The translations under genes and the position numbers were made by a program. A stretch of DNA of 64,000 nucleotides, taken from Vitreimonas flagellata. Lineage in GTDB: Bacteria > Pseudomonadota > Alphaproteobacteria > Caulobacterales > Aquidulcibacteraceae. This document shows positions 28,209-38,827 of this stretch, piece after piece. The notes under the pieces are model-generated. The model was given only the letters and a program-made list of their open reading frames with translations, was not told where the DNA came from and ran no database searches. Location of the stretch: contig NZ_SBJL01000003.1 of the NCBI RefSeq assembly GCF_004634425.1, positions 124,001 through 188,000 on the forward strand. Reading direction: 5' to 3'. Each line of letters begins with the position of its first letter. Position 1 is the first letter of the stretch.

Positions 28209-30533
<2,325 letters not shown>

Positions 30534-30617
30534 GACTTGGAATAATGGGCGCCCCGAAGGCCAAATTCCAGCCACGGATTGCGCGGACAGATTGTATGCT
30601 GCCATGTAAGAGAGCGC

Positions 30618-31748
30618 ATGAGCGATTTGCGGGACGGATACATCGTTGGCACGGGCGTGTTTCTGCCGGGCGAGCCGGTTGGGAACGACGCGATGGAGGA
30701 TCATCTGGGCCGCATTGCGGGCCGGGATTCCCTCTTCGGCAAGAAGGCGTTGCGCTGGAATGGCGTCGAGAGCCGCCATTACGCGATGCGCCCGGATGGC
30801 AGCGTGACGCACACATTGGCCCAGATGAGTGCAGAGGCGGTGCGCACGGCGCTGGATGCGGCGGGGCTTGAGCGGCGCGATCTTTCCATGCTGGCGAGTG
30901 CGGCGACGCAAGGCGATTATCTGGTGCCGGGCCATGCGTCGGCCGTGCACGCGGAATTGGGCGCGGGCGCGCTTGAGGTGGCGAGTTTTCAGAGCGTGTG
31001 CGGCTCGTCGCTAATGGCGGCGAAATCGGCTTGGCTTGCGGTGCGTGCGGGTGAGCACGATGTGGCGGCGGCGTGCGCGGGTGAGTTTTCGTCGCGCTGG
31101 TTTCGGCCGAGCTTCTATGAAGGCACGGCGCTCGTGGATGCGAAGGGGCGTCTGCGCGCGGAGGCGGATTTTCTGCGCTTCACGCTTTCCGATGGCGCCG
31201 GCGCGATCGTGGTGGAGCCGAAGCCGCGGCCGGGCGCGCTCAAGATCAATTTCATCGACATCGTCTCGCTCGCCGATCGTTTCGATCCGTGCATGTGGGC
31301 CGGCGCGCCGGTCGAGACACGCGCGGACATGGCGAGCGCATGGGCGCATGTGGGTCCGCGCGCGGCGCATGAAGCGGGCGCGATGGCGCTGCTGCAGGAT
31401 TTCGAACTTCTGAAGAAGGTGATCCGCGCTTGGGTCGGCGCTTATCTGCAGAAGGTGGACGAGGGGCGGATCGTGCCGGCGGAGGTCGATCATTGCCTAG
31501 TGCATTATTCGGCGAAATCGCTGCGCGCTGAGATCGTGTCGCTGTTGGAAAACACTGCGGGCATGGTGCCGGAAGAGAAATGGTTCTCGGTGTTGCGTGA
31601 GGTTGGCAATGTCGGCTCGGCCTCGATCTGGGTGATGCTGGATCGCTTGGTGCGGAGCAGGCGCGTGCAGCCGGGGCAGAAGATTTTGTGCGTAGTGCCG
31701 GAGAGCGGGCGTGCGCTGGTCGGCTTTATGATGCTGGAGGCGGTGTGA
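30618..31748 (+). CDS. StlD/DarB-family beta-ketosynthase (KAS III-like)
   Basis: A 376-residue thiolase-fold enzyme from the ATG at 30618 (AAGAGAGCGC upstream). [21 protein letters not shown] at the N-terminus and [20 protein letters not shown] at the C-terminus match DarB/StlD rather than housekeeping FabH. The catalytic triad is C128 (SVCGSS), H296 (LVHYSAK) and N331 (GNVGSAS). Characterised relatives condense two acyl chains into cyclohexanediones, precursors of dialkylresorcinols or stilbenes. The dedicated aromatase usually found beside DarB is absent here; a di-iron oxidase follows instead. Confidence 0.85.
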
Positions 31749-32413
31749 TGTCTGATGCTGCGTCCGATGTGCTGCGCAAGCTCACCATCGTGTTCACCGA
31801 ATTTGAAGGCCGCCTCGAGCAAACGCATTTGATCCGCAAGCTCACGCGCGGGCGGTTCGAATTGGCGGATTACCAGGCGTTTCTCATTCAATTGCGTCAG
31901 CAGGTGAAGGATGGCGCGCTCTGGATGTCACGCGCGGCGTCGAATATCGATGAAGCGCACTTGGAATTGCGCTCGGCTTTGATGCGCCATGCTGTGACGG
32001 AGCATCGCGATTTTCGTTTGCTGGAAGCGGATTTCATCGCCAGCGGCGGCGACGCGACGATCATTCGTAGCGCGGAGAAGAATGTCGGCTCCGAAGCGCT
32101 GTCGGCCTGGATGTTTCATGAGGCGAGCAAGCCGAACCCGTTTGGTTTGCTGGGCGCGATGTGGATCATCGAAGGCTTGGGCTCGATCAAGGCGCAGGAA
32201 TGGGGCCGGCGCGTGAAAGATACGCTTGCGCTGCCCGATGAAGCGGTGCGCTTCCTGCTTTATCATGGCGAGAACGACGCCGCGCACATCGAGGAATTCA
32301 AAGACATGCTGGCGATGGTGTTGCCGGACGACGCGGTGGCCGCGCGCATCGTGAAGACGGCGCAAGTGACGGCGCGGCTTTATGCGCTGCAGATCGAGGA
32401 AATTCTGCCGTGA
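31748..32413 (+). CDS. Haem-oxygenase-like di-iron oxidase (iron-containing redox enzyme family)
   Basis: A 221-residue all-helical protein of the TenA/HDO superfamily. Candidate metal ligands are spread over the helices: FEGRLEQTHLI, HAVTEHRDFRLLE, MWIIEGLGS and the C-terminal YHGENDAAHIEEF. Family members oxidatively decarboxylate or hydroxylate fatty acids and amino acids. The ATG shares one base with the ketosynthase stop (TGATG) and its own stop overlaps the next start the same way, so all three proteins are made in step. It may tailor the ketosynthase product; that is inference. Confidence 0.8.
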   Translation: MSDAASDVLRKLTIVFTEFEGRLEQTHLIRKLTRGRFELADYQAFLIQLRQQVKDGALWMSRAASNIDEAHLELRSALMRHAVTEHRDFRLLEADFIASGGDATIIRSAEKNVGSEALSAWMFHEASKPNPFGLLGAMWIIEGLGSIKAQEWGRRVKDTLALPDEAVRFLLYHGENDAAHIEEFKDMLAMVLPDDAVAARIVKTAQVTARLYALQIEEILP

Positions 32414-33312
32414 TGGGCGCAACGCTCGATCTCAGCACCTACGATCCGGACGATCCTGATCCGTGGCTGGCGCTGCATCTGGATCAGAGCATGCCGATCG
32501 ATCCGGAGGCGAAGGCGGCGTTGTTGCGCGGCGCTGCATCGTGGTCGCGGCGCTGGATGTTCAACATCATCCGGCCGTTCGTGTTCGTGTTCTTCCTGCT
32601 GGTGAAGATTCTACGCGGGCTTTCGCCGCGCTATCCCAATCTGAACGGCCTGCTGCACAAGACGATCCATTGGGGCCTAAAGACATTCGCGACGCCCGAC
32701 GCGAATTTGCTGATCGTGCGCCATTTCAATATCGGTACGGAGCTGTTGGCCTTCATTAAGGCGAATGCTGGCGATGTTGAGATCAACACCGTGCCGCTGC
32801 GGCCGCGCACGCTGAAGGATTTGGAAGACAACGTCTTCCTGCAGCACGATCTCAACGTCTTCAATTTCGTGATCCAACTGAACGCGAGCCTGCGTAAGCA
32901 AGGCCGCGATCTTATGCCGGTCGACCGGCCGGACTTTTCGATGATCTCGGACGAGCCGTTCAAGATTCCGCGCACCAAGAAGGGCTGGCTCAATTTCGTC
33001 GACGTGCAGACGGCGGTGGAGGTTTACACGCCGCTCTATGCGCTCATGCTGCCGCGCTCGGATTTCATCCGCGCCTCAAACTCGCTGCAGCTCGATGAAG
33101 TGGTGGCGATCTATATCGGCAAGATCCTGGGCACGGATTATCACCTGTCTTTCATCAAGAACGGCCACCCGCTGGTGCCGCTCTCGACCATGCAGGCCGG
33201 GTTCCGGCTGATGCTGCATGGGTTGGATTGTGAGGCGCTGCACGGCTGGCTGCGCCTGATGAAGCGCCGCCAGGCCGCCGGGCTGCCGATGGACCCGCGC
33301 GCGCGGGTTTAG
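32413..33312 (+). CDS. Unknown membrane-associated protein of the ketosynthase/di-iron oxidase operon
   Basis: A 299-residue protein; an in-frame GTG at 32410 is possible but the ATG at 32413 gives the TGATG coupling. One hydrophobic segment (about 50-68, FNIIRPFVFVFFLLVKIL) could be a membrane helix or a hairpin anchor. The remainder is soluble, with conserved-looking LIVRHFNIGTELLAFI, PRTLKDLEDNVFLQHDLNVFN and KILGTDYHLSFIKNGHPLVP. I recognise no catalytic motif. Tight coupling to the two enzymes argues for a role in the same lipid-like pathway. Confidence 0.7.
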   Translation: MGATLDLSTYDPDDPDPWLALHLDQSMPIDPEAKAALLRGAASWSRRWMFNIIRPFVFVFFLLVKILRGLSPRYPNLNGLLHKTIHWGLKTFATPDANLLIVRHFNIGTELLAFIKANAGDVEINTVPLRPRTLKDLEDNVFLQHDLNVFNFVIQLNASLRKQGRDLMPVDRPDFSMISDEPFKIPRTKKGWLNFVDVQTAVEVYTPLYALMLPRSDFIRASNSLQLDEVVAIYIGKILGTDYHLSFIKNGHPLVPLSTMQAGFRLMLHGLDCEALHGWLRLMKRRQAAGLPMDPRARV

Positions 33313-37438: not shown

Positions 37439-38827
37439 CTAATCGGGAACGATGTCCAGCGCGAACGTCATGCGCACGCCGTCGCCGCTGAACGGAATGG
37501 TGCCGTGCCACATGTAGGACGGAAATAGCGCGATGCTCCCGACGTGCGGCTGGATGAAATGCTCGGCTGGGCAGGGGGGACGTGTTGGCGCGCCAGGCTC
37601 GCCAAACTTGATCCAGCCTTCTTTGCCCGGCGCATCGACGGGGAGCGAAAGGTAGCAGGCCGAGGAGAGCCAGCCTTCGGAATGCACGTGGTTGATATGC
37701 ACGCCGCCGCTCTTCATGCGGATCGACCAGATGCCTTTGATCGCATGGCGCCCGGTGTTGCGAGCGCGCAAGGGATCGGGGCCTGCGCCAAGGCGTTGCA
37801 TGTAGGCTTGGATTGGCGTGTCGAGGGCGATCGGCAATGCGCGAAGCGCTGGCGCGTCGCTGTCGAGGATTGATGTCGCCTGCGTGCCGCGCTTGATCGA
37901 TTGATTAAATGGATGCGCCTTGGCGCGATGCAACGCTTCAAGCGCCGCGCTTAAATCGCGCAGGTAAGCGTCGAGCGTGTCCCAGCCGGCTGGCACGCCA
38001 AGCTTGAAGGCGGCGACGAAGGCGTCGAAATCGTAGAGCGCGCGATAACGCGGATCGCCCAGGAGGCGCCACGCGGTCGCTTCCAATGCGATCGCGTGTT
38101 GGTTGCCCGGCGCGGATTGGCGCAGTCTTTCGATGGCGGGCAGGGCGCGCTCTGACGCCCCCACCGCAAAGCAGGCGCTCGCGAAGGCCACGGCGCTGAC
38201 GGCTGAGTCTGGCGCGAGGCGGTAGGCGGTTTCGCTCAATCTCAACGAGGCGTCAGGCTCGCCCAGTTCGAGCGTGATCTGGGCGAGCGCGGTCAAGATG
38301 CGAGGATCGCCGGGATTGTGCTTGGCGAGCATCAGTAGGCTTTCGCGCGCTTGTGCTTTCTCGCCGGCATTGTCTTGAATTTGCGCCCGCATCAGCTGCA
38401 GCACGATGTCCGCAGGCGCTGCGCCAAGGGCGGCGTCAATGTCCGCCAAACTTCCACGCAAATCATCGCCCGACATCCAGCGCAATTGCGCGAGCTCGCG
38501 CAGCGCGTCGTAATAGAGCGGGCGCCGCCGCAAGGTTTCGCGGAACGCCTTTTCCGCTTCACCCCACTGGCCGTTCTCGACCAGCGCGCGGGCGAAGACG
38601 AGCCAGGTTTCGGGGGCGTCGCCACCTTTGGCGAACGCGGCGCGGACATGCTGTTCCGCCGCCTTCCAGAAACCAGCGTCGCCAAGACCTGCCGCAAAAT
38701 TGTGCTCCGCGACGGCGCTGGTGGGGCGGTCGGCGACTGCTTGCTCGCGGCGCAAGATATCCTGAGCGACGACTGAGGGAATTCGTCGCCGGCGCAGTTC
38801 CGCAACGAGGGGGACGACTTCAGTCAT
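37439..38827 (-). CDS. TPR protein with C-terminal 2OG-Fe(II) oxygenase domain
   Basis: A 462-residue cytosolic protein. TPR-like helices fill about residues 30-250 (AEHNFAAGLGDAGFWKAAEQHV, GEAEKAFRETLRRRP, GDPRILTALAQITLELGEP). The C-terminal domain (about 340-462) resembles the 2OG-FeII_Oxy_5 group: GVHINHVHSEGWLSSACYLSLP, then GSIALFPSYMWHGTIPF. The HINH/H and WHGT histidines are the probable iron ligands. Such proteins hydroxylate peptides or unknown substrates; they are frequent near TonB-dependent receptors in this class. Confidence 0.83.
   Translation of the reverse strand: MTEVVPLVAELRRRRIPSVVAQDILRREQAVADRPTSAVAEHNFAAGLGDAGFWKAAEQHVRAAFAKGGDAPETWLVFARALVENGQWGEAEKAFRETLRRRPLYYDALRELAQLRWMSGDDLRGSLADIDAALGAAPADIVLQLMRAQIQDNAGEKAQARESLLMLAKHNPGDPRILTALAQITLELGEPDASLRLSETAYRLAPDSAVSAVAFASACFAVGASERALPAIERLRQSAPGNQHAIALEATAWRLLGDPRYRALYDFDAFVAAFKLGVPAGWDTLDAYLRDLSAALEALHRAKAHPFNQSIKRGTQATSILDSDAPALRALPIALDTPIQAYMQRLGAGPDPLRARNTGRHAIKGIWSIRMKSGGVHINHVHSEGWLSSACYLSLPVDAPGKEGWIKFGEPGAPTRPPCPAEHFIQPHVGSIALFPSYMWHGTIPFSGDGVRMTFALDIVPD

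Follow-up and report, generated by a model that had tools for sequence, protein, structure and literature searches.

A conserved gene trio encoding a DarB-like ketosynthase, a haem-oxygenase-like oxidase and a DUF6999 protein, and its possible role in ring-lipid formation

What might be made by three overlapping genes of Vitreimonas flagellata in which a DarB-like ketosynthase is followed by an oxidase in the place of the DarA aromatase? The window referred to here is the whole stretch of DNA that was analysed, 64,000 nucleotides in length. The three genes are called KS, HDO and DUF6999, and their features are as follows:

30618-31748, + strand: KS, a DarB/StlD-like ketosynthase, 376 aa
30999-31001, + strand: codon for the KS nucleophile C128 (basis: invariant in 73/73 KS rows)
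31503-31505, + strand: codon for KS H296
31608-31610, + strand: codon for KS N331
31746-31750, + strand: TGATG stop/start overlap of KS and HDO (basis: sequence)
31748-32413, + strand: HDO, a haem-oxygenase-like dimetal oxidase, 221 aa
31988-32011, + strand: HDO helix motif H81-x3-E85-x2-D88, with the D88 codon at 32009-32011
32264-32287, + strand: HDO ligand motif H173-x3-D177-x2-H180 (with E142)
32411-32415, + strand: TGATG stop/start overlap of HDO and DUF6999 (basis: sequence)
32413-33312, + strand: DUF6999 (PF22523) gene, 299 aa

The original prediction for this locus held that each gene pair overlaps by one base within a TGATG motif, and both junctions were found at the positions given above.

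Relatives of the trio were collected with a DUF6999 alignment in a scan where each species was represented by a single genome, which identified 546 relatives among 593 candidate stretches. Only the best 80 of these 546 were kept as loci; distant members are thereby under-represented, and many of the rows are close kin (the DUF6999 protein of L016 is 96% identical to that of the window). Following the removal of rows with short coverage, conservation was counted over 73 KS, 84 HDO and 85 DUF6999 rows, window included. HDO lies upstream of DUF6999 on the same strand in all of the best 80 loci, and KS lies upstream on the same strand in 77 of them; the three loci without KS (L038, L071 and L073) are cut by a contig edge. 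Chance does not account for this arrangement, since 77 of 80 loci show the order KS-HDO-DUF6999 and the remaining three are contig-cut, and the proposal that the trio is a conserved unit holds among the best 80 of 546. HDO is separated from the aligned DUF6999 start by at most 83 bases in 74 of the same 80 loci. The six exceptions comprise L072, L087 and L085, which have inserted ORFs (two unassigned ones in L085), and L066, L067 and L084, where the spacer measures 132-355 bases. Single-frame fusions of KS and HDO occur in 6 of the 77 loci, and the phylum sample adds three further fusions (L003-L005, with the full KS in L110, L113 and L114). When pairwise distances for the three proteins were compared across 73 loci, correlations of 0.89-0.94 were obtained, a pattern that may come from shared descent alone.

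The three-gene order is not confined to Alphaproteobacteria but extends to Gammaproteobacteria and to Acidobacteriota, the latter represented by metagenome bins only. A more distant trio is carried on a Pseudoalteromonas replicon, and the single match among the plasmid records searched was from Pseudoalteromonas. DUF6999 is present in 5 of 299 sampled genomes of the phylum and in 9 of 60 genomes of the window's own family; these nine are found among 30 genomes of the window's genus, with none among 30 outside it. This patchy occurrence within the family indicates that the trio is dispensable. DUF6999 and HDO are present in Caulobacter vibrioides, and locus L023 of that species contains all three genes. 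Whole or partial trios were also observed in bins that carry Bordetella, Anaerolineae or Acaryochloris labels (L060, L073, L082 and L089). As the DUF6999 proteins of L060 (65%) and L073 (63%) are about as identical to that of the window as many alphaproteobacterial ones are, misbinning is possible.

The first gene was predicted to have DarB/StlD hallmarks and a complete C128/H296/N331 triad, and both are present. KS scores 318 bits against NCBIfam model NF005293 (cut-off 450) and 268 bits against the DarB model NF053539 (cut-off 550), whereas the best FabH-type model gives 63.5 bits and TIGR00747 fabH gives 51 bits. As its scores are below both the 450 and 550 bit curated cut-offs, KS does not count as a DarB on this criterion. 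Its best sequence match in the PDB is StlD (5gk0), which aligns near full length with an E-value of 2.1e-60. The triad is invariant in 73 of 73 KS rows, window included, and is shared by FabH. When NF005293 was scored over the 299 phylum genomes, three groups were obtained: seven genomes at 560-601 bits, five at 302-344 bits and the rest at 66.3 bits or less. The seven highest-scoring genomes exceed the NF005293 cut-off and carry true DarB, while the five with a mid-scoring KS are the same five that carry DUF6999. Neither HDO nor DUF6999 was found within about 1500 bases on each side of any of the seven DarB loci.

A tree of 51 of 95 KS rows was constructed after thinning at 78% identity, by a quick search with SH-aLRT support and with StlD left out. 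In this tree, the trio KS proteins (fused forms included) adjoin DarB, with support of 86 for the trio branch and 73 for the DarB branch, and FabH is set apart at 100% SH-aLRT, with a long branch leading to the FabH root. An alignment of 35 trio, 8 DarB/StlD and 9 FabH rows contains 22 columns in which trio KS and DarB/StlD share a residue unlike the commonest one in FabH. E156 is not diagnostic because FabH has it too. On these sequence comparisons, KS groups with DarB and away from FabH, with the split between trio and DarB itself not firmly resolved.

Because KS belongs to the FabH-like fold family and has the triad, it could be argued that it serves as an ordinary start enzyme of the FabH type, with HDO and DUF6999 as unrelated passengers. 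We consider this to be exceedingly improbable for three reasons. First, FabH is separated from KS with full SH-aLRT support. Second, two FabH genes that exceed the fabH cut-off are present elsewhere in the window's genome. Third, unrelated passengers would not be expected where the trio order is kept in 77 of the best 80 loci. The identification of KS as a housekeeping FabH was ruled out by the tree and the signature columns, and the model scores agree with the earlier expectation that it would cluster elsewhere.

In a passage of PMC3949708, darA ("DAR-aromatase") is listed next to darB, and a protein of about 305 aa is encoded beside darB at most DarB loci. The 305-aa protein used as the putative DarA query was named by this position, without a family-model match. 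Putative DarA, putative DarH and putative DarG were each found in 7 of 7 DarB genomes versus 0 of 5 trio genomes. The trio therefore appears without the usual dar partners, an absence that goes beyond DarA alone. Nor are these partners seen elsewhere in the window's genome, as a whole-genome search found no DarA-, DarH- or DarG-like protein. The claim that no DarA-type aromatase accompanies the trio is thus borne out genome-wide with the putative DarA query. The further suggestion that HDO takes the place of DarA fits this mutual exclusion (7/7 versus 0/5), but its chemical part stays conjectural.

The second gene had been read as a haem-oxygenase-like oxidase, and this assignment is sustained by a match to Pfam PF14518 above the cut-off (E-value: 8.3e-11) and by an AF2 model with a pLDDT of 95.7. 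Based on this model, HDO is predicted to have a haem-oxygenase fold. Foldseek comparison gave TM scores of 0.87 for 3dde (the nearest fold, of unknown function), 0.85 for CADD, 0.78 for UndA and 0.76-0.78 for true haem oxygenases. As the score for UndA is no better than those for true haem oxygenases, the fold by itself gives no preference for UndA.

The predicted metal site of HDO is both strongly conserved and altered. H81, E85, D88, E142, H173, D177 and H180 are each present in 100% of 84 HDO rows. Twelve trio rows were compared with 15 other PF14518 members, which were those aligned from 30 fetched loci and include several near-copies. E142 and the H173-x3-D177-x2-H180 motif match in 15 of 15 of these other members. 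In the helix-1 ligand column, however, Asp (D88) is found in 12 of 12 trio rows versus His in 15 of 15 others, and 3dde also has His. At position 81, a single turn ahead of E85, every trio row has His and the 15 other HDOs do not, while 3dde has His there. FlcD is described in part of PMC11363339 as binding iron via a Glu and a His of helix 1 and a His of helix 3. As this helix-1 His coordinates iron, the position that is changed in the trio corresponds to a known ligand site, and chemistry like that of UndA may not transfer to an HDO in which the ligand is missing.

Since CADD, with a TM score of 0.85, is one of the nearest folds, HDO might instead be a self-sacrificing p-aminobenzoate synthase of that type, in which case the trio would be no lipid pathway. 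CADD and NePabS are reported in a section of PMC11965152 to use Y27/25 and K152/159. In an alignment of 48 HDO rows, the columns that are invariant or nearly so include no Tyr before Y42, and HDO accompanies, and is sometimes fused to, a DarB-like KS. We regard a CADD-like function as very improbable.

Our preferred reading, which we put forward tentatively as a possibility, is that the trio is a self-contained pathway for a ring lipid built from two fatty-acid thioesters, with KS forming the ring and oxidation by HDO replacing DarA; its product and chemistry are what we infer from the protein families. KS would join a beta-ketoacyl thioester to a 2-enoyl thioester and close the ring as DarB does. 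DarB is stated in part of PMC5515871 to give 4-carboxy-2,5-dialkylcyclohexane-1,3-diones, and the KS product would accordingly be a 4-carboxy-2,5-dialkylcyclohexane-1,3-dione. HDO would then use O2 at its dimetal site to oxidise this intermediate, in the role held elsewhere by DarA. UndA converts fatty acids to 1-alkenes and CO2, according to a passage in PMC13108848, and an UndA-like oxidative decarboxylation is the chemistry that we would favour for HDO: loss of the C5 hydrogen and of the C4 carboxyl as CO2 would create a C4=C5 bond and, by tautomerisation, a 2,5-dialkylresorcinol, so that a single step would suffice. Finally, the DUF6999 protein, which its hydrophobic helix might anchor in the membrane, may modify, bind or move the product. 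The KS-HDO fusions (6 of 77 among the best 80 of 546 loci) suggest that HDO acts on the KS product. If correct, decarboxylation of the KS product by HDO would explain both the absence of DarA and the fusion of KS to HDO. UndA-like chemistry should be viewed with caution, given that a ligand column is altered and that the fold comparison does not settle on one neighbour.

Two other outcomes were considered for the same enzymes. KS may make a linear product, such as a beta-keto acid or head-to-head ketone, which HDO would convert to an alkene or ketone in the way that UndA acts on lauric acid. We judge this to be rather improbable: HDO is predicted from its model to share the fold of UndA, and characterised HDOs mostly act on fatty or amino acids (as summarised in a passage of PMC13108848), but KS has the 22-column DarB/StlD signature and adjoins DarB in the tree. 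Alternatively, the ring may form and HDO may hydroxylate or cleave it; the resulting lipid would be hydroquinone/quinone-like or ring-opened, and would then be processed by the DUF6999 protein. The invariant Asp at the usual His ligand column suggests chemistry unlike that of known HDOs, and the many invariant polar residues of DUF6999 are as in an enzyme, but the neighbour clusters provide no pointer to quinone metabolism, and we consider hydroxylation or cleavage to be somewhat unlikely.

The third protein had been described as unassignable; a family was in fact found, as it matches PF22523 (DUF6999) over nearly its full length with an E-value of 5.6e-116 and 386.8 bits (curated cut-off 27). 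The names DUF6999 and PF22523 were absent from the open-access literature searched, and the family is named as one of unknown function. The AF2 model (pLDDT 93.8, pTM 0.92) is nearly all-alpha, with twelve helices. Foldseek searches with this model gave no match at E ≤ 0.001 in the PDB (best E-value: 1.5) and none at E 0.001 in a viral library (best E-value: 0.22), and the sequence matched nothing in the PDB better than an E-value of 1.1. The original prediction of one hydrophobic segment proved accurate: a 19-residue stretch at residues 49-67 has a mean hydropathy of 2.1 (next best, 1.2) and falls within the single hydrophobic helix of the model (residues 44-70). A 19-residue window with mean hydropathy of at least 1.6 is found in 76 of 85 DUF6999 rows, with exceptions that include L005, L007 and L094. 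DUF6999 is conserved to the same degree as KS and HDO, which counts against our preferred pathway because its part there is only loosely assigned. It contains many invariant His, Asp, Glu, Arg and Asn residues (for example, H104, H145, D146, D197, D228, H269 and E274). These invariant polar residues fit a predicted active site.

No gene was found consistently beside the trio by neighbour clustering, in which ACP genes lay outside the named queries and neighbours can be missed because the rough gene caller used placed some calls on the wrong strand. An Aas/LplT-like protein is encoded beside the trio in 6 of 85 loci (L007, L046, L079, L091 and L095, with only the MFS part in L075), upstream in L046, L075 and L079 and downstream in L007, L091 and L095. 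The Aas-like proteins of L079 and L091 contain MFS, acyltransferase and AMP-binding Pfam domains. In L087, a fatty acid desaturase gene (L087:997-1863) is located between the KS-HDO fusion and DUF6999. Although present in a minority of the 85 loci, these lipid-related neighbours (the six Aas-like proteins and the desaturase of L087) count in favour of a lipid pathway. A gene for a CDGSH iron-sulphur protein lies between HDO and DUF6999 in L072 (L072:9589-9837), and this protein is a possible electron donor. Elsewhere in the window, positions 37439-38827 (- strand) encode a TPR-repeat protein that also has a putative 2OG-Fe(II) oxygenase domain.

Upstream of the trio and divergent from it is uvrB (window 28209-30533, - strand); a divergent upstream uvrB is found in 21 of 85 loci searched, at distances of 85 to about 7100 bases. 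SOS control shared with uvrB was rejected, as GTTC-N7-GTTC with at most one mismatch has 51 matches in the window versus 55 expected, and no LexA-type box is present in the gap between uvrB and KS (30534-30617). Scans for promoters and terminators between 30300 and 33600 gave 0 and 4 sites, respectively, versus 0.6 and 3.2 in shuffled sequence.

The trio is a compact, widely kept unit for which we found no described product, and no description of KS, HDO and DUF6999 as a trio was found among the literature matches listed (open-licence papers). Its most far-reaching interpretation, which we put forward as a doubtful one, is a new class of ring-lipid pathway. In it, a DarB-related KS would supply the ring and an HDO subfamily, joined to KS as one protein in some lineages, would use a rearranged metal site to aromatise it by oxidative decarboxylation; together with a DUF6999 enzyme of new alpha-helical fold, they would make an undescribed lipid in at least two phyla, Caulobacter included. 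If true, DarB-type rings would have a second finishing route, the HDOs would gain a member whose metal site is altered, and DUF6999 would receive its first function and fold. Because Caulobacter vibrioides, a model species, carries the trio, these proposals are directly testable.

Among known systems, the trio most closely recalls the DarA/DarB dialkylresorcinol pathway (flexirubin, arcuflavin). The trio KS has the same triad and signature columns as DarB and is adjacent to it in the tree, but the trio contains HDO and DUF6999 instead of putative DarA, DarH and DarG. With UndA and other HDOs, the trio HDO shares the predicted fold, E142 and the H173-x3-D177-x2-H180 motif, and differs from them in having Asp at the helix-1 His column and an invariant H81. 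StlD (5gk0), the solved structure closest in sequence to the trio KS, was aligned with DarB in the signature columns; its product, a styryl-dialkylcyclohexanedione according to part of PMC5515871, would distinguish it from the trio.
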